Source: Arthrobacter sp. FW306-07-I | GTDB taxonomy: Bacteria > Actinomycetota > Actinomycetes > Actinomycetales > Micrococcaceae | Assembly (NCBI RefSeq): GCF_021800405.1 | Contig: NZ_CP084550.1 | Span: 2,046,001-2,110,000 of the forward strand | DNA length: 64,000 nt | Direction: 5' to 3' | Shown: in pieces, positions 2,061-24,999 of the stretch | Layout of the letters: each line of letters opens with the position of its first letter | Numbering within the stretch: the stretch's first letter is position 1 | The notes under the pieces: model-generated | Told to the model about the DNA's origin: nothing | The model's input: the letters and a program-made list of their open reading frames with translations, nothing else | Databases searched by the model: none | Translations under genes and position numbers: made by a program

Positions 2061-2080
2061 GGACACGCCCAGCCGTGTCC
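2061..2080. promoter_or_regulatory. Perfect 7-bp inverted repeat upstream of formate dehydrogenase operon
   Basis: GGACACG (2061-2067) and CGTGTCC (2074-2080) form a perfect inverted repeat with a 6-base centre. It lies 37 bases before the formate dehydrogenase start and about 87 bases after the hydrolase stop. It could be a regulator site for the fdh operon or a weak terminator for the hydrolase; a short T-containing tract (TGTTACTT) follows but is not a proper U-run. No convincing -35/-10 pair was found. The role is inferred from position only. Confidence 0.3.
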
Positions 2081-2116
2081 TGTTACTTCGGCCGTGGTCA
2101 GGGGTAAGCTCCAGAA

Positions 2117-5100
2117 ATGGCACCGCGAAGTTTTCTTCAATGGCCGGTCGTCCGTCAGCTGAGCACGGGCGACCTGTTCGGCCGTGGCCCAGCGGTCACA
2201 TCGGCCAAGACCAAGGCAATAGCTCCCCGCACGGCCACTGCCGACCGTGTGGTGCAGAGCGTGTGCCCCTACTGCGCCGTTGGCTGTGGGCAACGCGTCT
2301 ACGTTAAGGACGAAAAGGTAGTCCAGATCGAAGGCGATCCGGATTCACCCATTTCACGCGGCCGGCTGTGCCCCAAAGGCTCTGCCAGTGAGCAGTTGGT
2401 CAATTCGCCGGGCCGGCAGACCAAAGTGCTTTATCGTGCGCCGCGTTCCACCGAGTGGGAACACCTGGACCTGGAGAAGGCCCTTGACATGGTGGCGGAC
2501 CGGTTTATCGAGACCCGCCGCAGGACCTGGCAACAGGAAGACGATCAAGGCCGGCTGCTGCGCCGCACCATGGGCATCGCTTCGCTGGGTGGCGCAACCC
2601 TGGACAACGAAGAGAACTACCTCATCAAGAAGCTCTTCACAGCAGCAGGGGCGGTGCAGACCGAGAACCAGGCCCGCATATGACACTCCGCGACGGTTCC
2701 CAGTTTGGGAGCCTCTTTTGGACGCGGTGGTGCAACGCAATCACTGCAGGACATGGCCAACGCCGACTGCATCGTCATCCAGGGGTCCAACATGGCCGAG
2801 TGCCACCCTGTGGGCTATCAGTGGGTGGCGGAGGCGAAGGCGCGCGGTGCGAAGGTCATCCACGTCGATCCCCGCTTCACCCGCACGTCAGCGGTCTCGG
2901 ATAAGCACATACCTATTCGGGCCGGCTCGGACGTCGTGCTTCTCGGCGCACTGATCAACTACGTCATCAGCAACGATCTCTGGTTCAAGGAGTACGTCAG
3001 CGCGTATACCAACGCTGCAACCTTGGTCCACGACGATTACCGCGATGCCGAGGATCTGGGCGGGCTGTTCTCCGGCTTCGATCCCGAGAAGGGTGCTTAC
3101 GACACGTCCTCATGGGCATACGCGGAACGCGGGGACGGCGCCATTGACGAGCCCGGCCCCGGATCGGAACACGGTGCCGATGCCAGGGACCGCGCTGCCG
3201 GACATGCTTTCGGCAGCGGTGGTCCGCCCTTGGAGCACGCCGAAGTCCAGCGTGACGATACCCTCCAGAACCCCCGGACCGTTTTCCAGATCGTGAAGCG
3301 GCACTACGCCCGTTACACGGCTGAGATGGTCCAGGACATGTGCGGAATCAGCGTGGCCGACTTCGAGTACCTGGCACGCACCATCACGGAGAACTCGGGC
3401 CGCGACCGGACCACCTGTTTCGCCTATGCTGTGGGCTGGACCCAGCACTCGCTGGGAACGCAGTTCATCCGGGCTGCCGCCATCCTGCAGCTCCTGCTCG
3501 GAAACGTGGGACGCCCGGGAAGCGGAATCATGGCCCTCCGCGGACATGCCAGCATCCAGGGCTCCACGGACATCCCCACCCTGTTCAACCTGCTGCCCGG
3601 GTACCTGCCGATGCCCAGCGCAGGCCGCCACGACACGCTCGAGGACTATCTGTCCGTCATCGGGTCGAAGCAGCAAAAAGGTTACTGGGCCAATGCAGAT
3701 GCCTACACCATCAGCCTTCTTAAGGCATGGTGGGGCGACGCCGCCACAGCGGACAACGACTGGGCATATGACTACATTCCGAGGCTGACCGGAGCCCACG
3801 GAACATACGAGACCGTGATGGGCATGCTCGAGGACGAAGTGGAAGGGTACTTCATCCTTGGACAGAACCCTGCTGTGGGTTCAGCCCACGGCCGGATGCA
3901 GCGGATGGGCATGTCCCACTTGAAGTGGCTTGTGGTGCGGGATCTGAATCTCATCGAGTCCGCTACCTGGTGGAAAGACGGTCCGGAGATCGAATCGGGG
4001 GAGCTGCGCACCGAAGACATCGAGACAGAGGTGTTCTTCATGCCGGCGGCGACCCACGTGGAGAAAGCCGGCTCGTTCACCCAGACCCAAAGGCTGCTGC
4101 AGTGGCGCCACCAGGCGGTTGCACCGCCAGGGGAGTGCCAAAGCGAACTGCAGTTCTTCTTTGAACTGGGTAAGCGGATCCGCGAGAAGCTGGCCGATTC
4201 CAAGGACGAACGCGACCGTCCGCTGCTCGACCTGACATGGGACTACCCCACGGACGAGCACGGCGATCCCGATGCGGAAGCGGTCCTTGCCGAGATCAAC
4301 GGCCGCCACCTGGCAGGTCCTGACGCCGGGAAGCCCCTGTCCTCCTACACGGAGATGCAGGCTGACGGATCCACGTCTGGCGGCTGCTGGATCTACACCG
4401 GTGTTTACGCTGACGGCTTCAACCATGCCGCCAACCGCAAGCCGGGCCAGGAACAGGGGCCGACGGCGTCGGAATGGGGCTGGGCTTGGCCTGCCAACCG
4501 CCGGATCCTCTACAACCGCGCCTCGGCCGACCCGGACGGTAAGCCGTGGAGCGAGCGGAAGAAGTACATCTGGTGGGACCAGGAGCAGGGTAAATGGGTC
4601 GGAGACGACGTGCCCGACTTCCCGGTTGACCTTGCCCCGGGCAGCCACCCGGACCCCTCTGTCGGTGGTCCGGCCGCCCTCAGCGGTGATGATCCCTTCA
4701 TCATGCAGGCTGACGGCAAGGGCTGGCTGTTTGCGCCGAAGGGCCTCATGGACGGACCCCTGCCCACGCACTACGAGGCGCAGGAATCACCGGTGGCCAA
4801 TGCGCTGTACCCGCAGCAGCAGAACCCTGCGCGGCTGGTGTTCCCCCGCAAGGACAACCTGAGTGCGCCAAGCGCGGGGACCAGTGGCTCCGACGTCTAC
4901 CCGTATGTCTTCACCACGTACCGGCTGACCGAGCACCATACAGCGGGCGGAATGAGCCGCTGGCTTCCGTACCTGTCCGAGCTGCAACCGGAGATGTTCT
5001 GCGAAGTCTCGCCTCAGCTGGCGGCGGAGCGGGGTCTCGAACCTTACGGGTGGGCCACGATTATTTCGGCGCGCTCCGCCATCGAGGCAAAGGTCTTGGT

Positions 5101-5452
5101 TACTGACCGCATGGCGCCGCTCAAGGTCGGAGGCCACACCGTGCACCAGATCGGGCTGCCGTACCACTGGGGCGTCGGCAGCAATGCCGTCGTCAGCGGC
5201 GACGCTGCAAACGATTTGCTGGGTGTGACCCTTGATCCCAATGTCCAGATTCAGGAATCGAAGGTGGCCTCGTGCGACATCCGGCCGGGCCGCAGGCCCC
5301 GCGGGGCGGAACTGCTTGCCCTGGTTGCTGAATATCAGGAACGGGCCGGAGTGACCACCGAGACCGGCAACCGCGCCGTCACCAATCCCGCGGCGGAAGG
5401 CATCCAACCCCGCCCGGGTGAAAAGGGCAGCGCCGACGGTGGGGAGAACTGA
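2117..5452 (+). CDS. fdnG: Selenocysteine-containing formate dehydrogenase, major (alpha) subunit
   Basis: Catalytic subunit of a formate dehydrogenase-N/O type enzyme (formate to CO2), a molybdenum/tungsten bis-MGD oxidoreductase. The reading frame is interrupted by a TGA at 2681-2683 but continues in the same frame to 5452; read through it gives 1111 residues with selenocysteine at 189. The context ENQARI-Sec-HSATVPSLGASFGRGG aligns with the Sec site of E. coli FdnG (NQARV-Sec-HGPTVASL). Cys50, Cys53, Cys57 and Cys85 (CPYCAVGCG ... LCPKG) bind a 4Fe-4S cluster. The conserved GWTQH, LLLGNVGRPG and LRGHASIQG blocks follow, with a C-terminal molydopterin-binding domain. No Tat signal is present; an in-frame TAA at 2105 prevents a longer N-terminus. 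Residues ~336-380 are a Gly/Asp-rich insertion relative to FdnG. First gene of the fdh operon. Confidence 0.95.
2681..2713 (+). promoter_or_regulatory. Selenocysteine UGA codon with bacterial SECIS-like hairpin
   Basis: The in-frame TGA (2681-2683) is followed after exactly 11 bases by a hairpin. GGTTCCC (2695-2701) pairs with GGGAGCC (2707-2713) through seven pairs, including one G-U wobble, closing a five-base AGTTT loop that has the apical G-U dinucleotide at 2703-2704. Spacing and apical GU match the minimal E. coli fdhF SECIS recognised by the C-terminal winged helices of SelB. The bulged U of fdhF is replaced here by a U-G/U-A pair. Presence of selA, selB, selC and selD a few kilobases away makes recoding to Sec, not termination, the expected outcome. 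Confidence 0.9.
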
Positions 5453-5553
5453 TGAGTCTGCTCCCCACCGTGTCAGCCCAAGCAAACACTGCCCCGTCCG
5501 GAACGCTGCCTGCCGGCGGCGTTCCGGACACCAACCCGACGACGGAGGACTAG
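5452..5553 (+). CDS. Possible 33-residue small protein between formate dehydrogenase alpha and beta genes
   Basis: An ATG at 5452 overlaps the alpha-subunit stop (TGATG), and the frame runs 33 codons to a TAG at 5551-5553, directly abutting the beta-subunit ATG at 5554. The peptide begins MSLLPTVSAQANTAPSG and is rich in Pro, Thr, Gly and Ala, with no Cys and no membrane segment. Both junctions have the geometry of translational coupling, and the beta-subunit ribosome site (GGAGGA) lies in its last codons. It is not a family I recognise. It could equally be an untranslated spacer or a leader that couples beta translation to alpha; the composition gives no strong coding signal. Confidence 0.35.
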   Translation: MSLLPTVSAQANTAPSGTLPAGGVPDTNPTTED

Positions 5554-6561
5554 ATGGGCCAGCTGTCCGGACCGACCGACCCCACCGCCGATGCCCACTG
5601 GGAGCACAACCATCCGCGCAAGGGGTTCTTCACCGACACCTCGATCTGCATCGGCTGCAAGGCCTGCGAAGTTGCCTGCAAGGAGTGGAACCACAACCCG
5701 CAGGACGGAAACCTGGAACTGCTTGGGTCCTCCTACGACAACACCGGATCGCTGGGTGCCAGCACCTGGCGGCACGTCGCCTTTATTGAACAGGGCCAGG
5801 AACGCATTATCGAGGCGCGAGAGTCAGGCCGTGCCCTGGTCAGCCTGGGCATGCCGCGCATCGGGCCGCCGGCCCCGGCAACGGCTGTTACGGATCTTGC
5901 GGACGCTGATACTACCCCGCCGGACACCGCAGACTTCCGGTGGCTGATGTCCTCTGATGTCTGCAAGCACTGCACCCACGCCGGCTGCCTCGACGTCTGC
6001 CCCACCGGCGCGCTGTTCCGCACAGAGTTCGGCACCGTCGTGGTCCAGGATGACGTCTGCAACGGCTGCGGTACCTGCGTGGCCGGGTGCCCCTTCGGCG
6101 TGATCGAGCGCCGCAGCAACGGCACGGTCAAAGTCGCCAGCAGCAGGGAAGAACAGCACGCCAAGCATCCCGACGTCCCCAACGAGGGCATCGCCCAGAA
6201 GTGCACGCTGTGCTATGACCGGCTGCTTGACGACCAGACGCCGGCATGCGCCAAGGCATGCCCGACGACGTCCATCAAGTTCGGCGACCACGATGACATG
6301 GTGGAGACGGCCCGGGAGCGGGTGGCCACCCTGCATGCGCAGGGGATGACCGAAGCAAGGCTCTACGGGGCGAACGAAAACGACGGCGTCGGCGGAACCG
6401 GATCTGTCTTCCTGCTGCTGGACGAACCAGAAGTGTACGGGCTTCCGCCGGACCCCCGGGTGCCCACCGCAGACTTGCCGAAGATGTACCGCCGCGCCGG
6501 CATGGCCGTGGCAGGCATGGCTGCGGCCGCTGCGTTGGCCTTCCTGGGAGGACGGGCGTGA
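5554..6561 (+). CDS. fdnH: Formate dehydrogenase iron-sulfur (beta) subunit
   Basis: A 335-residue polyferredoxin-type electron transfer subunit that carries electrons from the molybdenum subunit to the membrane subunit. Sixteen Cys in four groups can bind four 4Fe-4S clusters: Cys32/35/38/42 (CIGCKACEVAC), Cys137/140/145/149 (CKHCTHAGCLDVC), Cys169/172/175/179 (CNGCGTCVAGC) and Cys217/220/232/236. The C-terminus ends in one hydrophobic helix (RRAGMAVAGMAAAAALAFLGG), like the anchor helix of E. coli FdnH. No Tat signal is visible. A GGAGGA ribosome site lies just before the ATG. The stop overlaps the GTG of the next gene (GTGA), so the genes are translationally coupled. Confidence 0.93.
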   Translation: MGQLSGPTDPTADAHWEHNHPRKGFFTDTSICIGCKACEVACKEWNHNPQDGNLELLGSSYDNTGSLGASTWRHVAFIEQGQERIIEARESGRALVSLGMPRIGPPAPATAVTDLADADTTPPDTADFRWLMSSDVCKHCTHAGCLDVCPTGALFRTEFGTVVVQDDVCNGCGTCVAGCPFGVIERRSNGTVKVASSREEQHAKHPDVPNEGIAQKCTLCYDRLLDDQTPACAKACPTTSIKFGDHDDMVETARERVATLHAQGMTEARLYGANENDGVGGTGSVFLLLDEPEVYGLPPDPRVPTADLPKMYRRAGMAVAGMAAAAALAFLGGRA

Positions 6562-7649
6562 CCCTCTCAGAGTTCGACAGCTTCCGGCCATCAGAACCTG
6601 CCCGACGCCGCCGGCAGGGCGGCAAGCGCGGCACCGGTCGACGCCGGGACAATGGTGACGGCTCACGGGAAATGCCCATGGTTCCGGAGCCTGAGTTCAC
6701 CTCGTACTACGGGCGTCCCGTCGTGAAGCCGGCGCCTTGGGGCGATGACGTGGCCATATACCTGTTCCTGGGTGGCGTGGCAGGCGGGTCAGCCCTCCTC
6801 GGTCTTGGCGGGCAGCTGACCGGCCGGCCTATCCTTCGCCGCAACGCCCGGCTGGGCGCCTTGGCGGCAGTAAGCGCCGGTGCCGTTGCCCTGGTGAAGG
6901 ACCTGGGCAGGCCGGAACGTTTCCTGCACATGCTGCGGACCTTCAAGGTGACCTCGCCGATGAGTGTGGGCTCGTGGATCCTTAGCGCCTTCAGCGCGGG
7001 CACGGCCGTGACCGCGGTGGCGGAAATCGACCGGATGACCGGCAGCCGGCTTCCGCTGGGTCCGTTGCGGAAGGTCCTGCATGCAGTGGAAGGTGCGGCC
7101 GGCGTCGAAGCGGCGGTTTTCGCCGGGCCACTGGCGGCGTACACGGCTGTCCTGCTGGGTGATACCGCCACCCCGACATGGAATGCTGCGCACGAGGAAC
7201 TGCCATTCGTCTTCGTTAGTTCGGCCTGCCTCGCTTCTGCCGGCCTCGCCATGGTTACCACACCCATCCATGAGACAGGACCGGCCCGGAAACTTGCGGT
7301 GCTCGGCGTGCTGGGGGATGTCGCTGCCATGAAGGTGATGGAGCGCCGCATGGATCCGGTGGCCGCCGAGCCCCTGCACCAGGGTAAGGCGGGCTCCATG
7401 CTGAAGTGGAGCGAGCGGTTGGCGTTGGCCGGCGGACTCGGAACGCTGCTCGCGGGGCGCAACCGCGTGGTGGCGGCAGCTTCGGGATTGGCGCTGCTGG
7501 GCGCTTCGGCCCTGACCCGCTTCGGCGTGTTCGAAGCGGGCCTCGCCTCGGCCAGGGATCCGCGGTACACCATCGAACCGCAGAAGAACCGGCTCGCTGC
7601 CCGCCGTGCCGCAGGCGTGACCGGCGACGCGATCACCACCGCCGGTTGA
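6558..7649 (+). CDS. NrfD/PsrC-like membrane subunit of formate dehydrogenase
   Basis: A 363-residue polytopic membrane protein with about eight hydrophobic helices, from VAIYLFLGGVAGGSALLGLG onward. This opening pattern, followed by LVKDLGRPERFLHMLRTFKVTSPMSVGSW split over two helices, is typical of NrfD/PsrC quinone-interacting subunits, not of the cytochrome b FdnI. It likely passes formate-derived electrons to menaquinone without heme. The first ~35 residues are polar and very Arg-rich (ARRRRQGG, GRRRDNG), unusual for the family, which supports a cytoplasmic N-terminus. The GTG start overlaps the beta-subunit stop by 4 bases. The gene ends only 13 bases from the convergent selD stop. Confidence 0.85.
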   Translation: MTLSEFDSFRPSEPARRRRQGGKRGTGRRRDNGDGSREMPMVPEPEFTSYYGRPVVKPAPWGDDVAIYLFLGGVAGGSALLGLGGQLTGRPILRRNARLGALAAVSAGAVALVKDLGRPERFLHMLRTFKVTSPMSVGSWILSAFSAGTAVTAVAEIDRMTGSRLPLGPLRKVLHAVEGAAGVEAAVFAGPLAAYTAVLLGDTATPTWNAAHEELPFVFVSSACLASAGLAMVTTPIHETGPARKLAVLGVLGDVAAMKVMERRMDPVAAEPLHQGKAGSMLKWSERLALAGGLGTLLAGRNRVVAAASGLALLGASALTRFGVFEAGLASARDPRYTIEPQKNRLAARRAAGVTGDAITTAG

Positions 7650-7662
7650 GCGGGCAGCCGCG

Positions 7663-8688
7663 TCAGCGGACCTCGATGCCCCGCCCTGCAGTGGTGTGGC
7701 CGATCACCGGGTAGCCCGGCAACTCGCCGACCACCAGCAGCCCGCCTGAGGTCTGGGCATCGGCCAGCAGCAGCAGGTCGTTTTCGGTGACGCCGGCAGC
7801 GGAGCGCAGGTGCGGCCGCACCCAATCAAGGTTGCGCCGGGTTCCGCCGGAGACGAAACCGTCACGGAGTGCCTCCCGCGCGCCCTCGATCAGTGGTACA
7901 GCCTTCAGATCGATCACGGCGCCCACCTCCGAGGCGCGGACCATCTTGTAAAGGTGCCCCAGCAGGCCAAAACCCGTCACGTCAGTGGCGGCCCGGACGC
8001 CGGCAGCAACCGCGGCGTCGGCTGCGTCCCGGTTGAGGGCCGCCATCGTCTCCACCGCTTCAGCGAACACCTCCCCGGTCTGCTTGTGCCGGTTGTTGAG
8101 AAGTCCGACGCCGAGTGGCTTGGTGAGCGTGATCGGCAGCCCGGGCTGGGCGGCGTCGTTGCGGAGCAGGCGGTCGGGGTGGGCGACGCCCGTGACAGCC
8201 ATGCCGTACTTCGGCTCCGGATCGTCGATGGAGTGCCCACCGAGCACCGGGCACCCCGCCTGGGACGCCACACTCAGCCCGCCGCGGAGGACTTCCGTCA
8301 TCAATTCCATCGGCAGGACTCCGCGGGGCCAGCCGACGAGGTTGATCGCCGTGACCGGGCGGCCGCCCATCGCGTAGATGTCCGAGAGGGCATTGGCGGC
8401 CGCAATCCGGCCCCAGTCAAACGCGTCGTCAACCACGGGAGTGAAGAAGTCAGCGGTGGTGAGGACGGCCAGATCATCGCGGACCAGGACCGCCGCGGCG
8501 TCGTCGCCGCTGTCCAGGCCAACCAGCACCTCTGCGCCCGGTTGGCCGATCAGGCCGCGGACGGCGTCCTCGAGTTCGCCTGGCGGAATCTTGCAGGCGC
8601 AGCCTCCGCCGTGGGCATAGTCGGTGAGCCGGAGCAAGCCGGCGGCACCATCATCAAGTTGCTGTACTGACGTCTGAGCCTCATTCAC
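7663..8688 (-). CDS. selD: Selenide, water dikinase (selenophosphate synthetase)
   Basis: Makes selenophosphate from selenide and ATP, the selenium donor for SelA. The 341-residue protein has the glycine-rich N-terminus YAHGGGCACKI, which gives the catalytic Cys30 and Lys33 that match Cys17 and Lys20 of E. coli SelD. This enzyme therefore uses Cys, not Sec, at that site. The PurM-like blocks LDSGDDAAAVLV, TTADFFTPVVDD and ATDVTGFGLLGHL follow. It is transcribed toward the formate dehydrogenase operon and divergently from tRNA-Sec/selA/selB, with 44 bases between its start and the tRNA 5' end. Length is normal for the family. Confidence 0.95.
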   Translation of the reverse strand: MNEAQTSVQQLDDGAAGLLRLTDYAHGGGCACKIPPGELEDAVRGLIGQPGAEVLVGLDSGDDAAAVLVRDDLAVLTTADFFTPVVDDAFDWGRIAAANALSDIYAMGGRPVTAINLVGWPRGVLPMELMTEVLRGGLSVASQAGCPVLGGHSIDDPEPKYGMAVTGVAHPDRLLRNDAAQPGLPITLTKPLGVGLLNNRHKQTGEVFAEAVETMAALNRDAADAAVAAGVRAATDVTGFGLLGHLYKMVRASEVGAVIDLKAVPLIEGAREALRDGFVSGGTRRNLDWVRPHLRSAAGVTENDLLLLADAQTSGGLLVVGELPGYPVIGHTTAGRGIEVR

Positions 8689-8719
8689 CCGCCTAGCGTA
8701 CCCCTCCAGTTAACCCTGC

Positions 8720-8725
8720 TATATT
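8720..8725 (+). promoter_or_regulatory. Probable -10 element of the tRNA-Sec/selAB transcript
   Basis: TATATT lies 7 bases before the first base of tRNA-Sec, the spacing expected if transcription starts at or near the mature 5' end. No good -35 hexamer is found at the usual distance. This is the only A/T-rich hexamer in the 44-base gap between the divergent selD and selC genes. The call rests on position and similarity to TATAAT only. Confidence 0.4.
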
Positions 8726-8732
8726 GAGGCGC

Positions 8733-8827
8733 GGTGGCGTCCGGGTCCTGGTGGGCCCCCCGGTCTTCAAAACCGGTGAGGCTGAGCATCTCGGCCTGGC
8801 GGGTTCGATTCCCGTCCGCCACCGCCA
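8733..8827 (+). tRNA. selC: tRNA-Sec, anticodon UCA
   Basis: A 95-base tRNA ending in an encoded GCCA, the same length as E. coli selC. The anticodon stem CCGGT/ACCGG closes the loop CTTCAAA with anticodon TCA (8767-8769), which reads UGA. Features that define tRNA-Sec are present: a six-pair D stem (GGGTCC/GGGCCC) with a four-base loop, a long variable arm (AGGCTGAG/CTCGGCCT, eight pairs, three-base loop) and a T arm GCGGG-TTCGATT-CCCGT. The acceptor has seven clear pairs (GGTGGCG/CGCCACC); the eighth position would be a U-C mismatch. It lies 36 bases before selA, so tRNA and protein genes are probably co-transcribed. Confidence 0.96.
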
Positions 8828-8863
8828 AACTACCGGCGTGAATGCCGTGAAAAGAGGAGGGCT

Positions 8864-10195
8864 GTGGTCCAGGTCGATCCCCGGCGGCTGATTCCCCGCA
8901 CGAACGACCTGCTGGCGTTGCCCGCCGTCCGCGAGGCCCGGACACGGATGAATGAGCGCGTCGTCCGCGAACTCGTCCGAAAAATCCAGGGACAGGCCCG
9001 CCGCGGTGAGCTGCCTCCCAACCAGGTGCAACCTGCCCTGCTCGCAGCCGTCGCTTCACATAAAGCAACAACCCTCCGTCCGGTGCTGAACGCAACCGGC
9101 GTCATCGTGCACACGAACCTTGGCCGCGCCCCCCTTTCTGCAGCGGCGGTGGAAGCCCTTGTCGCTGCCAGCGGCTACGTTGACGTGGAACTGGACCTTG
9201 CAGACGGCGGCCGCTCCCGCCGCGGTGCCGGTGCCCGGGCCGCCCTCCTCGCTGCCTGTCCTGCCGCCGAGGACGCCTTGGTGGTCAACAACGGAGCTGC
9301 AGCGCTGGTGCTGGCCACCACAGCCCTGGCCGCCGGCCGGGAGGTGGTGGTGAGCCGCGGGGAACTCGTCGAGATCGGTGCAGGCTTCAGGCTGACCGAC
9401 CTGATGGAGTCGACAGGCGCGGTGCTTCACGAGGTGGGTACCACCAACCGGACACACCTGCATGACTACGCGGGGGCCGTCGGACCGGACACGGGCTGCA
9501 TCCTCAAGGTGCACCCGAGCAACTTCCGGGTGGACGGGTTCACGTCCGCGGTTCCGATTGCCGAACTGAGCCGGCTGACCGCGGCACACGGCGTTCCACT
9601 CGTGGCTGACCTGGGCAGTGGGCTGCTGGCGCCCGATCCGTACCTGCCGGACGAACCGGATGTCGCCTCCGCCCTGGCGGGCGGCGCCGACGTCGTCATC
9701 GCCAGCGGCGACAAACTGCTGGGCGGCCCCCAGGCCGGGTTGCTGCTGGGCCGCAAGGAAATCATTACCCGGCTGGCCCGCCACCCGCTCGCCCGTGCTG
9801 TCCGGGCGGACAAGCTTGCCCTGGCCGCCCTGGAAGCAACCGTCGCCGGCGGGCCGACGCCCGTCGTCGAGGCGCTGCACGCCGACGTCGAACAGTTGCG
9901 GCGCCGTACTGACAGGCTCGCCCACGCCTTGGGCGTCCCCGTCGTACCCCATGACGGCCGGGTGGGCGGCGGCGGCGCCCCCGGCGTTCCGCTGCCGGGA
10001 TGGGCGCTGCGGCTCCCCGAGGGAATTGCAGGACGCTTGCGCACCGGCGACCCGGCCGTGTTGCCGCGCGTCCACGACGGCGCCTGCCTGATCGACTTGC
10101 GCTGTGTGCCGCCGGCCGAGGATGACCGGATCCTCGATGCCGTTCGGCAGGCACTGGCAACCCTCGACGTTGCGGACGCAGGCAGGGCGGGCTGA
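8864..10195 (+). CDS. selA: L-seryl-tRNA(Sec) selenium transferase
   Basis: PLP-dependent enzyme that converts seryl-tRNA(Sec) to selenocysteyl-tRNA(Sec) with selenophosphate. The 443-residue protein has the SelA blocks NATGVIVHTNLGRAPLS, VSRGELVEIGAGFR, HEVGTTNRTH and the PLP-binding SGDKLLGGPQAG with Lys284. The N-terminal helical domain that binds tRNA-Sec is present. It starts at GTG 8864 with a strong GAGGAGG only 3 bases upstream, which is close for a ribosome site; no better in-frame start is apparent. The stop is followed two bases later by the selB start. Slightly shorter than E. coli SelA (463). Confidence 0.95.
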   Translation: MVQVDPRRLIPRTNDLLALPAVREARTRMNERVVRELVRKIQGQARRGELPPNQVQPALLAAVASHKATTLRPVLNATGVIVHTNLGRAPLSAAAVEALVAASGYVDVELDLADGGRSRRGAGARAALLAACPAAEDALVVNNGAAALVLATTALAAGREVVVSRGELVEIGAGFRLTDLMESTGAVLHEVGTTNRTHLHDYAGAVGPDTGCILKVHPSNFRVDGFTSAVPIAELSRLTAAHGVPLVADLGSGLLAPDPYLPDEPDVASALAGGADVVIASGDKLLGGPQAGLLLGRKEIITRLARHPLARAVRADKLALAALEATVAGGPTPVVEALHADVEQLRRRTDRLAHALGVPVVPHDGRVGGGGAPGVPLPGWALRLPEGIAGRLRTGDPAVLPRVHDGACLIDLRCVPPAEDDRILDAVRQALATLDVADAGRAG

Positions 10196-10197
10196 CC

Positions 10198-11994
10198 GTG
10201 CACGTCGTTGCCACGGCCGGACATGTCGATTCCGGTAAAAGCACCCTGGTCCGCGCCCTTACCGGCATGGAGCCGGACCGATGGGAGGAAGAGCGGCGCC
10301 GCGGGCTGACCATTGACCTCGGCTACGCATGGACCACCTTGCCGTCCGGGCAGGACGTTGCCTTCGTCGACGTGCCCGGCCACGAACGCTTCCTCGGCAA
10401 CATGCTTGCCGGAATCGGACCGGCTCCGGTGGTCTGCTTCGTCGTAGCCGCGGATGAGGGCTGGCAGGCCCAGTCAAGCGATCATCGGGATGCGGTAGCT
10501 GCGCTTGGCATTGAACACGGCGTGGTAGTCCTCAGCCGCGCGGACCGGGCATCCGGGCAGCGCGTCGCCGACGTGCTGTCGCGGGCCCGCACGGAGCTGG
10601 CAGGGACCGGGCTGCGGGATGCCCCAGCCATCGCTGTTTCGGCCATCAACGGGACCGGCCTGGCTGAGTTGCGTGCAGCGCTCGACGGCGTCCTGGCCCA
10701 GGTGCCTGCCCCCACCACAACGGGGCGGGTCCGGTTGTGGGTGGACCGGTCGTTCACGATCAACGGGTCCGGAACGGTGGTCACCGGAACACTGGCAGCG
10801 GGCACGCTCGCCCAGGGTGACCGGCTGGAACTGCTGGGCCATTCGGGGTCCCGGCCGGTGGCGGTCCGCGGCCTGCAAAGCCGCGACACCTCGTACCAGT
10901 CGGTGGAGCCGGTCAGCCGGGTGGCGTTGAACCTGCGCGACGTTGCCGCAACGGACATCAGGCGCGGGGACGCGCTGGTTACCCCTGGTGCATGGCCCAC
11001 CACCGGCGTCGTAGGCATCCACCGCACCACCGGGGTGGCGTATACCGACGTGCCCGAGCAAATCATGGTGCATGTGGGCACGGCGTCCGTGCCGGCGCGG
11101 CTGCGTCCCTTCGGGGCCGACCATGCCCGGCTGGTCCTCGACAGGCACCTGCCCCTGGTTCTCGGGGACCGGCTGGTGCTGCGCGACCCTGGCAGCCGTT
11201 CGGTCCTGGGTGGGGCGCGCATTCTCGACGCGGACCCACCGGAGCTGCGGTGGCGCGGTGACGGCGCGCACTGGGCCGAACGGCTTGCAGGGATGGATCC
11301 CGCAGGGGACGTTCTGGGGGAAGTGGCAGCCCGCGGAGCGGTCCAAATGGATCATCTCCGCAAGCTTGGGCTGCTGCCCGGGCACGCTGTGGATTCCCCG
11401 CAGGGCGTGCGGGTTTTCGGTGACTGGTGGGTGCATGCCCCTGTCCTTGAGGCGTGGCAGCACCGGCTTCGGGGCGCGGTCGAGGCGCTGCAGGAGCGGG
11501 ACCCCCTGGCCCCAGGCCTTTCCATGGGCGCGGCGCGGGACCTGCTCAGGTTGCCCGACGAGAGGTTGCTGTCCCACGTTATCCGCGGGGCGGAGCTGGA
11601 GCAGGACAGCGGCCACATCCGGGTGCCGGGCAGCCAGGGCAACCTTGGCCCCATTGAGCCGGCAATCGCCCGGTTGGAGCGCAGGCTCAAGACAGACGCG
11701 TTCCATGCCCCGGAAGCCGACGAGCTGGCGTCAATGGGCCTCGGCGCCCGGGAACTGGCCGCCGCCGAACGCACGGGACGGCTGCTGCGTCTGCGTGACG
11801 GGGTGGTGCTGCTGCCCACGGCACCCGCGCTTGCGATGCGCACCCTCGCCGGCCTGGCCCAGCCCTTCACCACCAGCCAGGCACGCCAGGCGCTGGACAC
11901 AACACGCCGGATCGCGGTCCCGCTGCTGGAGCACCTTGATTCCCGCGGCTGGACCAAACGGATTGATGCCGGTCACCGTACAGTGGTTCGCTGA
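10198..11994 (+). CDS. selB: Selenocysteine-specific translation elongation factor
   Basis: GTPase that delivers Sec-tRNA(Sec) to ribosomes at UGA codons marked by a SECIS. The 598-residue protein has an EF-Tu-like N-terminal part with G1 GHVDSGKS near residue 8, G3 DVPGHERF and a G4 motif written SRAD, in place of the NKxD of EF-Tu (E. coli SelB has TKAD). Beta-barrel domains follow, and the C-terminal ~240 residues hold winged-helix repeats that bind the SECIS hairpin. The GTG start is two bases after selA, so the two are coupled. It converges with the following kinase gene with 34 bases between. Confidence 0.95.
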   Translation: MHVVATAGHVDSGKSTLVRALTGMEPDRWEEERRRGLTIDLGYAWTTLPSGQDVAFVDVPGHERFLGNMLAGIGPAPVVCFVVAADEGWQAQSSDHRDAVAALGIEHGVVVLSRADRASGQRVADVLSRARTELAGTGLRDAPAIAVSAINGTGLAELRAALDGVLAQVPAPTTTGRVRLWVDRSFTINGSGTVVTGTLAAGTLAQGDRLELLGHSGSRPVAVRGLQSRDTSYQSVEPVSRVALNLRDVAATDIRRGDALVTPGAWPTTGVVGIHRTTGVAYTDVPEQIMVHVGTASVPARLRPFGADHARLVLDRHLPLVLGDRLVLRDPGSRSVLGGARILDADPPELRWRGDGAHWAERLAGMDPAGDVLGEVAARGAVQMDHLRKLGLLPGHAVDSPQGVRVFGDWWVHAPVLEAWQHRLRGAVEALQERDPLAPGLSMGAARDLLRLPDERLLSHVIRGAELEQDSGHIRVPGSQGNLGPIEPAIARLERRLKTDAFHAPEADELASMGLGARELAAAERTGRLLRLRDGVVLLPTAPALAMRTLAGLAQPFTTSQARQALDTTRRIAVPLLEHLDSRGWTKRIDAGHRTVVR

Positions 11995-12028
11995 CCGGGC
12001 CCCTCATGCAGCACGTTTGGAAGGACGG

Positions 12029-12544
12029 CTAGTCCGGGACGGCTGGCTGGACGCGGCGGAGGATGTCATCCACGACGCGCGCCAGCGGGGCAGTGGCGTC
12101 GATCGTGATGCCGCCGGGTGGAATCTCCTCCCGTGTTCGGTGCAGGTGCTCAATCAGCTCCCGTTCTGTTTGGCGTCCTCCCCATTCGTCCTCAGGGCGC
12201 TGATCCAGCCGCTGCTTCAAGGTTTCCAGGTCCACCTCAAGAACGAAGACACCATCGAAGAGATCGATGAACTTGGCGAGGTTCCGCGACCCGCCGCAGA
12301 AAAAGGTCACCGCTTCCCGCGGGTCCGCGGCCAACGCCCTGACCTGGTCCACCCTCCAGAGGTGGTGCCCGTGTACGGCGACTCCGGTGATGCCGCCTAC
12401 CGGTTCTCCGGTTTCCGGATCACCTTGATAGGCGAGTTCGCGGTCGCCGTTGATGGCGTGGTAGCCACGGCGGCGCAATTCATTGCAGACTGCCGTCTTG
12501 CCGGTGCCCGAGCCGCCTTCGATGAGGTAGTTCTTCCTGCCCAT
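12029..12544 (-). CDS. P-loop nucleotide kinase-like protein (AAA family ATPase)
   Basis: A 171-residue protein with a Walker A motif GGSGTGKT at residues 10-17 and the overall size of a small nucleoside or metabolite kinase. Conserved-looking parts include INGDRELAYQGDPETGEP and a short region FDGVFVLEVDLETLKQRLDQR, typical of the lid and base-contact region of adenylate-kinase-like folds. The phosphate acceptor is unknown. It faces selB convergently, so it is not part of the sel operon; no link to selenium should be inferred from position. The start has no obvious strong ribosome site. Confidence 0.65.
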   Translation of the reverse strand: MGRKNYLIEGGSGTGKTAVCNELRRRGYHAINGDRELAYQGDPETGEPVGGITGVAVHGHHLWRVDQVRALAADPREAVTFFCGGSRNLAKFIDLFDGVFVLEVDLETLKQRLDQRPEDEWGGRQTERELIEHLHRTREEIPPGGITIDATAPLARVVDDILRRVQPAVPD

Positions 12545-18547: not shown

Positions 18548-19699
18548 TTAGCCCCGGCCCGCTCCTTGGCCGCTCCTGTGAGGTGCGCCCGCTGCAAGCT
18601 GCAAGTCCTGCTGAAGGGCGTAATACTGCGGCTTCGGCTGGAGGTTCTCGTCATAGATGCTCGCTGCGCCTTCGCCCTGGAAGACTCCGGGCACCCACGA
18701 GTAGGCGTCACCGAAGCCCCATATGGTGTAGGAGATGCATTCCTTCACTGCCATGCAGGCCTGGAGCGTCTGCGAGTATGCGGCCACTTGTGCCGACTGT
18801 TCGACGGGTGTGACCGGCAGGGTGGTCCGCACGTCGACTTCTGTCTCTGCCACGTCCAGGCCAAGGTCAGCGAATCTCTGCAGGTTGTTCTTCAGGTCAG
18901 GCAGCGGGTATTGCGTGTCCAGGTGGGTCTGGAACCCCACCCCGTCGATGGGAACGCCCTGCGCTTTCAGGTCCTTGACGAGCGCATAGGCGGCGTTGCT
19001 CTTCGGCCCGGTGGATTCGATGTTGTAGTCGTTGTAAAAGAGCTTGGCCTGTGGATCTGCCTCGTGCGCCCAACGGAAGGCATCTGCGATATAGCCCGGC
19101 CCCAGCTTCTGCAGCCAGATGCTGTTGCGCAGGGTGCCGTCTTCATTGAACGCCTCGTTGACGACATCCCACTGCCAGATTTTGCCCTTGAAGTGCGTGA
19201 CTTGATCAGTGACATGCTTGTGCAGGACCTGCCTCAGCTGGTCCGCACTCATCCCTGGGGCGGCAGCCGTAAGCCAGCTGGGGAGCTGGCTGTGCCAAAC
19301 CAGGGTGTGACCGCGCACCAACTGGTGGTTCGCCTCAGCAAATGCCACGAGCCGATCAGCGGCAGCCCAGTCATAGTTGCCTTGGGTCGGTTCAACCACT
19401 TCCCATTTCATGACGTTCTCCGGTGTGACCGTGGAAAACTGGGCGGCGGTGATATCGGTGTAGGCCGGATTGCTTCCGAGTTGGTCACTGTTGACCGCAG
19501 TGCCGATGCGCAATCCGATATTGGCGCCAAGTGCGCGGAGAGAATCGCGCTGCTGCGACGGTCCGCCGGCTTCCAGTGGTCCTGATGCAGCCATGGCAGC
19601 GGCTGGAGTGGCGAGCAGGGCGCACAAGCCGAGCGCACCGATGAAAAGGGAACGTTGAAAAGGCACGTAGTACTCCTTCGGTTTCTGGTTTGACTTCAT
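18548..19699 (-). CDS. Secreted endo-1,4-beta-xylanase, GH10
   Basis: Cleaves internal xylan linkages outside the cell. The 383-residue protein has a signal peptide (SLFIGALGLCALLATPAAAMAAS), then a single GH10 barrel from ~residue 55. WDVVNEAFNEDG gives the acid/base Glu182, and ETEVDVRTT gives the nucleophile Glu287. GHTLVWHSQLPSWL and FYNDYNIE are further GH10 blocks. No carbohydrate-binding module is attached; the C-terminus is a short basic tail. Its ATG overlaps the stop of the esterase upstream by 4 bases (ATGA), so the two are translationally coupled. Confidence 0.95.
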   Translation of the reverse strand: MKSNQKPKEYYVPFQRSLFIGALGLCALLATPAAAMAASGPLEAGGPSQQRDSLRALGANIGLRIGTAVNSDQLGSNPAYTDITAAQFSTVTPENVMKWEVVEPTQGNYDWAAADRLVAFAEANHQLVRGHTLVWHSQLPSWLTAAAPGMSADQLRQVLHKHVTDQVTHFKGKIWQWDVVNEAFNEDGTLRNSIWLQKLGPGYIADAFRWAHEADPQAKLFYNDYNIESTGPKSNAAYALVKDLKAQGVPIDGVGFQTHLDTQYPLPDLKNNLQRFADLGLDVAETEVDVRTTLPVTPVEQSAQVAAYSQTLQACMAVKECISYTIWGFGDAYSWVPGVFQGEGAASIYDENLQPKPQYYALQQDLQLAAGAPHRSGQGAGRG

Positions 19700-20697
19700 C
19701 TTTCAGAGGCGGAGATCTTGTCGCCGTGAGAGGGCGCCGCGAGCCGTGGTGCCAGGAACTGGCGTACCAATTGGTCGTCGTCCGGCCCGCCGGCTTCATG
19801 TCCGTTAAAGGGCCAGACTTTAATTTCCTTCTCGCCGCTGTATGCGTTGTAGGCGGCGAAGACCGTCGACGGAGGGGTAATCGGGTCCATGAGTGCTACG
19901 GAAAAGTAGGCGGGGTGCCTTGACCGTTCAGCGAAGTTGACACCGTCGAAATAGCTGAGGGTGTCGGCTACGGCTTCAGTGTTGTCACGGTGGGTGGAAA
20001 GATAGTCCGCGATCTCCCGGAAGGGATACGCGTCCGTGATGACTGTTGCCCTTGGGAAGTCGCAGAGAAAGGGGACAGTCACGGCCACTGCCGAGATGTC
20101 CGGCACCAGCGCGCCCACCGCAAGCGCAATCGCCCCTCCCTGGCTTCCCCCGGTCACAGCGATCCGGCCAGGATCGATCCAGGGGAGGGTGCGGACCGCA
20201 TCGACTGCCCGGACGCCGTCAGCGATGAGGCGGCGGTAGTAGTAGGTTTCCTTGCTGGTGATTCCTTTTGTCATGACGCCCGGAACCTGCGGGCCCGAGG
20301 GGCCCGGATCGGGGGTGTCGCCGACCGACCAGCCGGATCCCTGCCCCCTGGTGTCCATCTGCAGGTGGGCGAAGCCGGCGGAGGCCCAGAAAAGGTTCTC
20401 CCAGGGACGTCCCCGGCCTCCGCCGTAACCTACGTACTGGACTACCGCGGGCAGTGGTCCGTTTGGATTCTTCGGGGCCCGCAGCCAGGCCTTGATGGGA
20501 TCCCCTCCGAAGCCGGGGAAGGTCACGTCGTAGACATCAACTGTCTTCAGGCCTGGATGCACCGGTTCGACCACCACTTCGCCGCCGGCCTGGCGGGTTT
20601 CCTGCAGGGTCTGCTCCCAGAATGCGTCAAAGTCCTCGTTGCAGAGTTGGGAGCTCTTGTAGGTTCGGAGTTCCGTTTCGGGCATGTCGTTGTACAT
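19696..20697 (-). CDS. Acetylxylan esterase / cephalosporin-C deacetylase family (CE7)
   Basis: A 333-residue CE7 esterase that removes acetyl groups from xylo-oligosaccharides. The nucleophile elbow is GGSQGGA with Ser185, the acid is Asp271 (ALMDPITPPS) and the base is His300 (FNGHEAGG), and RGQG at 117-120 is the family-specific motif. There is no signal peptide, so it should act in the cytoplasm on imported oligosaccharides, unlike the secreted xylanase. An ATG four codons downstream (20685) is an alternative start. It lies 63 bases after the GH3 gene in the same run. Confidence 0.93.
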   Translation of the reverse strand: MYNDMPETELRTYKSSQLCNEDFDAFWEQTLQETRQAGGEVVVEPVHPGLKTVDVYDVTFPGFGGDPIKAWLRAPKNPNGPLPAVVQYVGYGGGRGRPWENLFWASAGFAHLQMDTRGQGSGWSVGDTPDPGPSGPQVPGVMTKGITSKETYYYRRLIADGVRAVDAVRTLPWIDPGRIAVTGGSQGGAIALAVGALVPDISAVAVTVPFLCDFPRATVITDAYPFREIADYLSTHRDNTEAVADTLSYFDGVNFAERSRHPAYFSVALMDPITPPSTVFAAYNAYSGEKEIKVWPFNGHEAGGPDDDQLVRQFLAPRLAAPSHGDKISASER

Positions 20698-20760
20698 ATG
20701 CAGAACTTTCTCGGGTGGAACTGGGGGCTTCCTGTCGGGCCCAGGTCTCTTTGCTGGGCG

Positions 20761-23079
20761 CTATCTGGCTGGGGAGGGGGCCGGCACGGCGACACTGTGC
20801 CGGGCCAGTCGGGCATCGTCGGCCGTTACGACATGCTCGGGGCCCGTGATGGTGAACACCGCTGTGGTTTCACGTTCCGCGCAGGACGGTCCAACCCAAA
20901 GCTCGATGTCACCGGGCTCCACGATGCGCGCACCATGCCGGCCGGTGAAGGCCAGCCGGGCAGTCGGCACATCGAATGTCACCAACCCGCTTTCACCCGG
21001 TTCCAGCGAGATTCGAGCGTAGGCAAGGAGCTGCGCGACGGGGCGGGTGACAGTGGCGTAGGTATCGTGCGCGTAGAGCTGAACCAGGTCGGTGCCCGCG
21101 CGTTCGCCTGTGTTCCGGACGGTAACCGTTGCCGTGAAAGCGTCGCCGGCGGACACCGTGTCCGCTACCTCGAGCCCGCTGTGCTCGAACGTCGTATAGG
21201 TCAGGCCGTGCCCGAAAGGGAGCACAGGTGTGCTGTCGGCGCTGGTAACGTCTGACGGACCTCCGAGTACAGGGTGCAGATACGAGAACGGCTGCGACCC
21301 CGCTGAGCGCGGCAGCGAGACCGGCAGGTGGCCGGACGGAGCTGCGCGCCCTGACAGTACCGCGGCTGCGGCCGGTCCGCCTTCTTCTCCTGGAAAGAAG
21401 GCCTGCAACACTGCGGCCGGGGCAGTGGCCCCCTGCAGTGCCCATCCGATGGCGTACGGCCGCCCAGAGAGTACGAGCATCACGGTAGGTGTGCCTGTTC
21501 GGACTACAGCCTCCACCAGTTCACGTTGGACGCCCGGCAGCTCCAGGCTCTCGACATCGTTACCCTCTCCTACAGTCCCGCGGCCAAACAGCCCGGCGCG
21601 GTCACCGACCACCACGATGGCAACGTCTGCGCCGGCTGCGGTCTCAACGGCTTCCTGGATGCCCGAGCGGTCGTCGTCGTCCACATCGCAGCCTCGGGCC
21701 GAAGCGACTGCGGCCGCAGGGAATTCGTCCCGCAGCGCTTCCAGGACCGATACGATGTCGAACCCGAGCGGCACCTCCGGGTGGTGTGCCAGCACGTGGT
21801 TGGCGAACGAGTAGCACCCCATCAGGGCCTCCGCCGCGTTGGCATTTGGTCCCAGCACCGCGATGCTTCCCTGGTTCCGCTTCAGTGGCAGGACCCCATC
21901 ATTCGCCAGCAACACCAATGATTCCCCGGCCAGCCGCAACGCCAGGTTGCGGTGGCGCGGGCTGTCCAGGTCAATTTCTGTGGGTGGGGCGTCGAACGTC
22001 TCGTCGAGCAGCCCCAGTTCTTCTTTCTGGCTCAACACACGCAGCACCGCGCGATCCACCAGCACCTCGTCGGAGAGGCCGCTGCGGATCCGTTCGGCGA
22101 GCGGGCCCACAAATGCATCACCGGTGGGCAACTCGACGTCGATGCCGGCCTGCAGCGCCAGCTCTGCGGCTTCACCGCGGTCGGCGGCGATCCGGTGCAT
22201 CGTGTGCAGGAAAGCGACGGAAAAGTAATCGGAGACCACGGTGCCGTCGAAATTCCATTCATCGCGCAGGATGCCCGTCAGGTACTCAGGGGCCGCCGCG
22301 ACGGGCACGCCGTCGATTTCGGAGTACGAATTCATTACCGAGCGTACGTTCCCGTCACGTACCGCCATCTCGAACGGCTGCAGCAGGACGTCCCGGAGTT
22401 CGCGGGCACCGACGTGCACGGGGGCATGATTGCGGCCTGCCTGTGACGCCGAGTAACCGACGAAGTGCTTGAGCGTGGCATGCACCCCCGCTGACTGCAG
22501 GCCCCGTACGTAAGCCGTACCGATGGTGCCCACCACATACGGGTCCTCCGAAATGCACTCGTCCACCCGGCCCCACCTCGGGTCACGGATGACGTCCAGC
22601 ACCGGCGCCAGGCCCTGGTGGATGCCGAGCGCGCGCATCGAGTCGCCGATGGCAGCGCCCAACTCCTCCACCAGGTCGGGGTTGAACGCGGCACCCCAGG
22701 CAAGGGGAGTGGGGAACGTGGCCGCCTTCCAGGCTGCCAGCCCGGTCAGGCATTCTTCGTGCACCAGCGCGGGAATGCCGAGGCGGGTCTGCTCCCGAAG
22801 CCTGCGCTGTTCCGACCACAGCCACCGCGCGCGTTCAAGCGGCTCAACCGGACGGGTGCCGTACACCCGGGTGAGATGTCCGATGCCCTCGGCCGTCGCG
22901 TCAGCGTAACTCGGTACTTCGGCGAACTCACCGTCAAGCGGTGCCACCTTGTCCTCGGATTTGTCCACCCAGTAACCCACCAGTTGGGCCAGCTTTTCCG
23001 GGAGGGTCATCCGGGCATGGAGCCGGCTGACCCGTTCCGACACGGGAGGGAGGGTGGGGCTGTTGCCAGGATTACTCAT
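20761..23079 (-). CDS. GH3 glycoside hydrolase, probable beta-xylosidase/beta-glucosidase
   Basis: A 772-residue three-domain GH3 enzyme. The N-terminal barrel contains APVLDVIRDPRWGR, LKHFVGYSASQAGRNHAPV and GTVVSDYFSV with nucleophile Asp284. A second alpha/beta domain follows (SIAVLGPNANAAEALMGCY), and the C-terminus is a fibronectin III-like domain beginning near GDAFTATVTVRNTG. No signal peptide is present, so it probably releases xylose from imported oligosaccharides in the cytoplasm. Xylosidase over glucosidase is inferred from the neighbouring xylanase and acetylxylan esterase. It starts 27 bases after the permease gene. Confidence 0.92.
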   Translation of the reverse strand: MSNPGNSPTLPPVSERVSRLHARMTLPEKLAQLVGYWVDKSEDKVAPLDGEFAEVPSYADATAEGIGHLTRVYGTRPVEPLERARWLWSEQRRLREQTRLGIPALVHEECLTGLAAWKAATFPTPLAWGAAFNPDLVEELGAAIGDSMRALGIHQGLAPVLDVIRDPRWGRVDECISEDPYVVGTIGTAYVRGLQSAGVHATLKHFVGYSASQAGRNHAPVHVGARELRDVLLQPFEMAVRDGNVRSVMNSYSEIDGVPVAAAPEYLTGILRDEWNFDGTVVSDYFSVAFLHTMHRIAADRGEAAELALQAGIDVELPTGDAFVGPLAERIRSGLSDEVLVDRAVLRVLSQKEELGLLDETFDAPPTEIDLDSPRHRNLALRLAGESLVLLANDGVLPLKRNQGSIAVLGPNANAAEALMGCYSFANHVLAHHPEVPLGFDIVSVLEALRDEFPAAAVASARGCDVDDDDRSGIQEAVETAAGADVAIVVVGDRAGLFGRGTVGEGNDVESLELPGVQRELVEAVVRTGTPTVMLVLSGRPYAIGWALQGATAPAAVLQAFFPGEEGGPAAAAVLSGRAAPSGHLPVSLPRSAGSQPFSYLHPVLGGPSDVTSADSTPVLPFGHGLTYTTFEHSGLEVADTVSAGDAFTATVTVRNTGERAGTDLVQLYAHDTYATVTRPVAQLLAYARISLEPGESGLVTFDVPTARLAFTGRHGARIVEPGDIELWVGPSCAERETTAVFTITGPEHVVTADDARLARHSVAVPAPSPAR

Positions 23080-23105
23080 GCTTCTTTTCCTTAATTGGGC
23101 TGCCG

Positions 23106-23972
23106 TCAGCCCTTGACGGCGCCGGTGAGTCCACCCACGATGCGCCGTTCAAAGAGGCTGAAGAACACCAGCGCGGGGATCATGGACAGGGATGTGAAGG
23201 CCAGGACCTGCGCTGTATCCGTGGAATATTGGGACGAAAACGCCTGCACCCCCAGGGGGAGGGTAAAGGTGGCTTCCTTGTTCAGGATGAACAGCGGCAG
23301 CAGGTAGCTGTTCCAGCTGCCGATGAAGACCAGGATGCCGGTGGTGATCACACCCGGAAGTGAAAGCCGCAGCACCATCCGGAAGAAGAAGCCCAGGCGG
23401 CTGCAGCCGTCGATGAAGGCAGACTCCTGGATTTCATCCGGGATGGCGCGCAGGAACGGCACCAGGATGATGATCGTGGTGGGGAGTGCAAACGCGATTT
23501 GCGGGAGGATGACGCCGGCCAGGGAGTTCATAAGGCCGAGGTTGCGCACCACAATGTACAGCGGTGTGATGGCAACGGTGATGGGAAACATCAGCCCGGC
23601 CGCGAAAAGCGAGTACAGCGCGCCGCGCCCCCGGAACTGGTACCGGGCGAGCACGTAGCTGGCCATCAGGCCCAAGCCGACCGCGCCCAGGGTGGTTACG
23701 GCCCCCACAATGGTTGAGTTCAGCACCTGCCGCCAGAAGACGCCCCCGCCTATGACAGTGAGGTAGTTGCCCACGTTCCAGGGATTTGGCAGGCCTGCCG
23801 GGTCAGTGGTGATCTGCGCATTCGTACGGAAACCGCCGAAAATGATGTAGGCGATCGGTGCCAACATGAGCGCAATGACCACAAGCGCAACGAAGTACAC
23901 GACGGGGGAGCCCCATGGCAGGCTTTGCTGGTCAGCCCGACGGGAACGCCGGGCGGTGATGGCGGCGGTCAT
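23106..23972 (-). CDS. Carbohydrate ABC transporter permease (MalG type)
   Basis: A 288-residue inner membrane permease with six predicted helices. The EAA-type loop that docks to the ATPase reads QESAFIDGCSRLGFFFRMVLRLSLPG. The N-terminal segment with FRTNAQITTDPAGLPNPWNVGNY is typical of MalG-like CUT1 permeases. It forms a heterodimer with the permease encoded just upstream, and their genes overlap by 4 bases. Together with the binding lipoprotein it should import xylo-oligosaccharides; no ATPase gene is in the operon. Confidence 0.92.
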   Translation of the reverse strand: MTAAITARRSRRADQQSLPWGSPVVYFVALVVIALMLAPIAYIIFGGFRTNAQITTDPAGLPNPWNVGNYLTVIGGGVFWRQVLNSTIVGAVTTLGAVGLGLMASYVLARYQFRGRGALYSLFAAGLMFPITVAITPLYIVVRNLGLMNSLAGVILPQIAFALPTTIIILVPFLRAIPDEIQESAFIDGCSRLGFFFRMVLRLSLPGVITTGILVFIGSWNSYLLPLFILNKEATFTLPLGVQAFSSQYSTDTAQVLAFTSLSMIPALVFFSLFERRIVGGLTGAVKG

Positions 23973-24988: not shown

Positions 24989-24999
24989 GGATCTTCCTC

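Follow-up and report, generated by a model that had tools for sequence, protein, structure and literature searches.

The 64,000-nucleotide stretch of Arthrobacter sp. FW306-07-I analyzed here (contig NZ_CP084550.1, positions 2,046,001 to 2,110,000; hereafter the window) carries a block of selenocysteine (Sec) genes at 2117–11994, in which seven parts form a tight run in the order fdhA, fdhB, an NrfD-type gene, selD on the minus strand, the tRNA-Sec gene selC, selA, and selB (Table 1). All four members of the bacterial Sec-decoding set, selA, selB, selC, and selD, are present in this genome, and selC is the sole RF01852 match above the cut-off in its 4.56 Mb. A sequence-only reading had placed a Sec-containing formate dehydrogenase (FDH), selD, tRNA-Sec, selA, and selB within 10 kb, and every part that it named is confirmed in place; fdhB and the NrfD-type gene, which lie in the middle of the block, are two genes absent from its list. 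FdhA passes the cut-offs of both NCBIfam NF041513 'formate_DH_Act' (1973.4 bits, cut-off 1400) and TIGR01553 (929.1 bits, cut-off 814.2), and its active site has a His directly after the Sec (ARIUHSATV), as membership of this class requires. The name fdhB follows from the best family match together with genomic place, and the NrfD-type protein is the probable quinone-side subunit. SelD carries a Cys and is therefore not a second selenoprotein.

Table 1 Features of the Sec block, with positions counted from the first nucleotide of the window
Feature	Position	Strand	Details
fdhA, catalytic subunit, Sec formate dehydrogenase	2117..5452	+	1111 residues, Sec at 189
Sec codon TGA (predicted)	2681..2683	+	context ENQARI-U-HSATVPSLG
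SECIS hairpin, 8 base pairs, loop GUU	2695..2713	+	begins 11 nt past TGA
fdhB, iron-sulphur (4Fe-4S) beta subunit	5554..6561	+	TIGR01582 FDH-beta best NCBIfam match; Fer4 domains
NrfD-type membrane subunit	6558..7649	+	PF03916 67 bits, cut-off 25.8
selD, selenophosphate synthetase, Cys type (GGCACK)	7663..8688	-	TIGR00476 388 bits, above cut-off
selC, tRNA-Sec, anticodon TCA	8733..8827	+	ARAGORN; RF01852 78.3 bits, cut-off 47
selA, selenocysteine synthase	8864..10195	+	TIGR00474 417 bits, above cut-off; PF03841
selB, Sec-specific elongation factor, C-terminal winged helix	10198..11994	+	TIGR00475 273.5 bits, cut-off 242.25; PF09107
Conserved unit	2061..11996	.	DNA homology limits in G123, G009, G152

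The fdhA open reading frame is uninterrupted over its whole length once the internal TGA is translated as Sec, and a selenocysteine insertion sequence (SECIS) hairpin lies directly 3′ of this in-frame codon. UGA 2681 is accordingly annotated in Table 1 as a codon predicted to be read as Sec. Under the standard code the same triplet interrupts the frame at 2681, which would fit an ordinary stop, or an fdhA pseudogene, with the sel genes as unrelated neighbors. Against this, the aligned Sec site is TGA in 93 of 94 sequences (the loci and the window, with some genomes represented twice), and the remaining one is a Cys paralogue. Among 197 genomes sampled from the Micrococcaceae, the Sec position is TGA in 55 of the 56 with a window-type fdhA and in 52 of the 53 that are selC-positive; in G125 the contig ends ahead of this position. 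Identity among family relatives is high on both sides of the TGA, the hairpin covaries, the decoding machinery co-occurs, and the more distant FDH copies described below carry Cys at the same position. Given the conserved TGA, the covarying hairpin, and the flanking identity, a chance stop or a pseudogene was rejected, and we regard either as exceedingly improbable.

The SECIS hairpin of the window folds with a z of -3.06 (segment 2678–2735), and across relatives its loop is GUU or GUC. All but one of the eight pairs are of standard type in 49 or more of 50 distinct sequences. For 32 of these 50, which were used both for the covariation test and for the covariance-model alignment, 98.0% of the cells are paired, compared with 23–67% in slid versions of the structure, a percentage that is biased toward the structure because the structure was drawn from the same sequences. 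Three pairs are altered on both sides, a number reached by 2 of 500 shuffles. A covariance model of the hairpin finds a single site at E ≤ 1 in the whole genome, located inside fdhA (E 2.7e-11).

Within the family sample, tRNA-Sec (scored as present above 70 bits) and SelB (scored above its cut-off) each occur in 53 of the 197 genomes, and the two sets are identical. Four genomes with RF01852 matches of 47.5–48.5 bits (G004, G035, G081, and G153) were left out of the tRNA-Sec count; they have no SelB above the cut-off and no FdhA match. The sequence-only reading had proposed a comparison of related genomes for co-occurrence of the parts, and this comparison shows fdhA and selC sharing a contig in all 53 selC-positive genomes. 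The gap between the two genes has a median of 3.3 kb and stays within 6.4 kb in 52 of the 53, the maximum being 14.7 kb in G060, where DNA is inserted between nrfD and selD. Among the 197 genomes, the sel genes are not found routinely apart from fdh. An FdhA relative is present in 59 genomes, 56 of them with the window-type gene and three with a Cys form only (G104, G150, and G162). A Sec-fdhA without selC was seen in G021, G148, and G167, with fdhA near a contig end in all three. A second sample, of 61 genomes from the genus, has a window-type fdhA in 18, each with the TGA inside the match. These frequencies, 53 of 197 and 18 of 61, agree with the earlier view that Sec use is patchy in the Micrococcaceae. 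One fdhA, that of G211 (L204:3325-6655), is frameshifted near residue 225–233, with selD, selA, and selB matching without stops; this may be ongoing decay or a sequencing error.

FdhA is the only detected client of the Sec machinery in this genome. No additional, unrelated selenoprotein was seen in a narrow search that used one SECIS model, with its single site, and one FDH family. In favor of other selenoproteins elsewhere in the genome, and not fdhA, maintaining the machinery, a differently shaped SECIS would escape such a search. We consider this reading improbable: the genome has one SECIS match only, the three other FDH-like matches above 100 bits have neither a TGA nor any other internal stop, and the passages available from PMC1794560 and PMC5029168 give fdhA as the sole selenoprotein in clustered cases. 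A weak FDH-like fragment at C1:3192547 carries a TAG. Second FDH copies in the family, approximately 64% identical (L149-L156), were considered as extra Sec clients and rejected, with Cys at the Sec position in all eight fetched. A first family scan had put a TGA in five of these eight; on alignment, none of the five has a stop inside it. The Cys copy in G150 means that this genome does not represent a Sec-FDH without machinery. Cys-FDHs are spread over five genomes with the Sec block (G018, G084, G121, G175, and G186) and the three Cys-only genomes without it. Where a Sec-FDH and a Cys-FDH occur together, they form a natural Sec/Cys pair.

The gene identities, the Sec codon, the covarying SECIS, the co-occurrence, and the block edges described below were all computed. 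We consider it very probable that the locus is a complete Sec decoding system together with its sole detected client, a membrane-bound FDH, acting and retained in the following manner. By analogy with known family roles, which also guide our view of where the electrons go, why the parts are retained together, and how the block moves, SelD would produce selenophosphate, SelA would turn Ser-tRNA-Sec into Sec-tRNA-Sec, and SelB would deliver the latter at UGA 2681 by means of the hairpin just 3′ of it, thereby providing the catalytic Sec of FdhA. FdhA, FdhB, and the NrfD-type subunit would together oxidize formate, with the quinone pool taking up the electrons. The block would be kept or lost whole, because machinery without a client, or a client without machinery, would be useless. 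Such a locus is a clean natural case of an expanded genetic code staying with its user, the two being present or absent together in close relatives. One enzyme appears to maintain a whole translation pathway, and the genus offers a favorable setting in which to measure how the 21st amino acid is gained and lost.

The limits of the block were mapped by aligning five block-bearing genus mates, 40 kb each, to the window and the 20 kb upstream of it. In three of the five, DNA homology starts 38–56 bases 5′ of fdhA (at 2061 in G123, 2079 in G009, and 2077 in G152) and extends no further than the end of selB (11995–11996), with the block DNA 79.5–84.7% identical and the adjoining sequence unrelated. 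In G123 and G009 the homology comprises the block alone; in G152 it ends at 11995, where an aldo/keto reductase gene adjoins that lies 19 kb further on in the window. The same block is therefore bounded by sharp edges in different contexts in these three mates. Such edges, along with the patchiness of the trait in the genus and the Sec-trait transfers into two Arthrobacter strains tabulated in the part of PMC5029168 available, fit a recent horizontal acquisition, with the block arriving as a discrete mobile island from another actinobacterium. On the other side, G205, the closest genome found (97% FdhA identity), has both flanks in common with the window, and right-flank genes are in common with it in G177 and G039, the other two of the five mates, and in G201. 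SelB groups mainly by genus, with 20 label changes against a minimum of 15 and a shuffled mean of 51.2; in this tree Sinomonas does not form a single group, and support is low for several deeper branches. Patchiness is accounted for equally by repeated loss from a block-bearing ancestor.

The sequence-only reading had seen no integrase or repeat at the edges, and this holds as far as the searches reached. No integrase, transposase, or conjugation gene was found among the window proteins run against Pfam, a subset of the genes that did not extend to the upstream 20 kb (L173). With each edge region searched by itself, there is no direct edge repeat: 11800–12200 contains no direct repeat, and in 1700–2300 there is one 12-nt pair, within the upstream gene. 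Two short inverted pairs straddle the left edge (arms 1770/2179 and 1768/2089) and may be there by chance. Among the matches listed for a joined-flank query, none spans a junction, and thus no clean empty site emerged. Weighing both sides, we see recent acquisition as a genuine contender, if a somewhat unlikely one. Under the reading of a linked system retained with its client, the sharp edges and changing neighborhoods suggest that the block also relocates as a unit, and because no mobile gene was found, homologous or illegitimate recombination is probably the route.

Related loci are found well beyond the family. A SelB scan of named genomes gave 273 confirmed loci, and among the best 80 of these, as classified by script, 62 match the window in the order and strands of all seven parts, 8 run into the end of the sequence, and 10 differ. 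Of these ten, L126 has fewer of the seven parts. Six of the ten, from Hyphomicrobiales, Afipia, and Xanthobacteraceae (L124, L129, L130, L132, L133, and L146) all have a Sec gene with the motif RTUHAPSVAGL near selB. These alphaproteobacterial loci resemble the window in having a SelB 58–60% identical to its own beside a Sec gene; they differ in that the client has the appearance of an NAD-type FDH and that selA and selD are 39–44% identical or undetected nearby. For L146, the sole one of the six tested, the Pfam domains of the Sec gene and its neighbors fit an NAD-type FDH. The six loci thus appear to pair machinery of the same kind with a different client.

The arrangement itself has already been published (2006, 2010, and 2016), and the present locus is a further case of a well-known block. 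A literature search found no paper joining selenocysteine, Pseudarthrobacter, and formate dehydrogenase. The accessible passages of PMC1794560 (2006) describe fdhA-sel linkage and joint transfer in proteobacteria, where selA-selB-selC operons of alpha-, beta-, and gammaproteobacteria likewise link the machinery to a single fdhA client and co-movement was proposed. Those operons differ from the window in belonging to other lineages and in having a selD that is reported to evolve more independently. A close published parallel is Corynebacterium aurimucosum, for which the passages seen of PMC2830990 (2010) report an fdnG, fdxH, selD, selA, selB region with selC, an FDH gene with an internal UGA beside a full Sec pathway in the same order to the extent that those passages state it. 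Its locus (L148) has the seven parts in the order of the window, with FdhA 65% and SelB 55% identical. Linkage of fdhA with sel genes and their transfer together, with the Sec-trait transfers into two Arthrobacter strains noted above, are also treated in PMC5029168 (2016), again as far as that text was available. In Actinomycetospora chiangmaiensis, according to the portion of PMC7176365 at hand, the FDH1 cluster is alike in having a membrane Sec-FDH that adjoins selA and selB; it differs in that selD is tabled outside this cluster and three Sec-FDH systems were deduced. The same portion reports that removal or use of formate by Actinomycetospora in culture, with this related cluster, is selenite-dependent.

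Several results weigh against the reading of a complete decoding system inherited with its client. The gene trees (59 rows, comprising the window and 58 loci; quick trees with support from the SH-like approximate likelihood ratio test, SH-aLRT, alone) are mutually congruent for selA, selB, and selD, with no strongly supported conflict among them, but the fdhA tree conflicts with those of selA, selB, and selD at 8, 6, and 2, respectively, of its 31 strong branches, and client and machinery are therefore imperfectly co-inherited. The conflicts with selA and selB are shallow and lie among close relatives. As such, the sel genes behave as a single unit that fdhA very nearly joins, its departures reflecting local recombination or tree error. 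The proposal of the sequence-only reading that the block could be inherited or lost whole draws support from co-occurrence, from edge-bounded homology in three of the five mates, and from the conflict-free sel trees. In the SECIS test, the number of pair types is not above that of the shuffles (301 of 500 reach it), a slide of -1 has 10 cells, all in one pair, changed on both sides compared with 7 in the proposed hairpin, and a slide of +3 has 2 pairs (5 cells) so changed compared with 3. FdhB scores 166 bits against TIGR01582, under the curated cut-off of 334.7, and the search for further selenoproteins was of the narrow scope given above. Finally, no Sec-FDH was seen in the flanks examined at L127 (Amycolatopsis acidicola) or at L136 and L137 (Brevibacterium), and machinery and client may therefore be separate there; all three loci carry selC, selA, and selB, and all three are outside the Micrococcaceae.

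Joined-flank and protein searches also brought up a 150-residue single-domain rhodanese (PF00581), for example at L162:15100-15552 on the minus strand, whose gene points away from fdhA in genus mates including G177, G152, and G039. With a query from a Sec-positive genome and a threshold of E ≤ 1e-15, it was found in 23 of the 53 Sec-positive family genomes and in none of the 144 others (Fisher p 1e-15, uncorrected for relatedness). Fifteen of the 23 matches are at least 72% identical, six are 46–51% identical, and the remaining two, G078 (partial) and G093 (35%), are weak; with these two set aside the count falls to 21 of 53 versus 0 of 144. The three Cys-FDH-only genomes, a small sample, also lack a match. 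The genus sample has close orthologues in 14 of the 18 Sec-fdhA genomes and in none of the 43 others. Weaker matches (34–39% identical, E 5e-13 to 4e-11) occur in 6 of these 43 and as second hits in two Sec-positive genomes. As a rough control, a cytochrome P450 near the block of the window is carried by 5 of 6 Sec-positive genus genomes, that of the window included, and by 2 of 6 Sec-negative ones. Over the two samples, the rhodanese is present in 35 distinct genomes, all Sec-positive. It lies within 30 kb of fdhA in 15 of them, farther away on the same contig in 6, and on another contig, which in draft genomes is not necessarily distant, in 14; hitch-hiking by linkage therefore poorly explains the 20 of 35 in which it lies beyond 30 kb or on a separate contig. 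In two Corynebacterium loci, a homologue 47–50% identical sits immediately upstream of fdhA and points the other way.

From this distribution, we tentatively suggest that the rhodanese may belong to the Micrococcaceae Sec trait, either as a perselenide selenium carrier to SelD or as a persulfide donor specific to maturation of the Sec-FDH, a proposal that we think rather doubtful. Speaking against the association, 30 of the 53 Sec-positive family genomes have no match. Nor was there a match in the genome of the window itself, where absence is likely and not certain, as the search may miss copies; the rhodanese is therefore not essential. In NCBIfam the protein comes closest to the rhodanese part of a MoeB-type family, well short of that family's cut-off, and a role in sulphur supply to the molybdenum cofactor may also be considered. 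Nineteen rhodanese regions showed no widely common partner gene, and those of L190, L193, and L194 share neighbors and look like one genomic place. Rhodaneses are debated as selenium donors to SelD, with unclear physiological relevance, in the part of PMC8538045 available, and a literature search, shallow for most items and covering sources in part, found no description of this association. If true, it would offer a genetic handle on bacterial selenium delivery to SelD.

Two further observations concern an outlying locus and the surroundings of the block. L113, a 9.6-kb contig labeled Acidobacteriaceae, carries actinobacterial-type selD, selC, selA, and selB; its SelB falls beside that of Gordonia in the tree, and the contig is possibly mis-binned. 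Downstream of the block, the window contains a xylan-use cluster at 18548–26286 with genes for a GH10 xylanase, an acetyl xylan esterase, a GH3 protein, and a sugar ATP-binding cassette (ABC) transporter.

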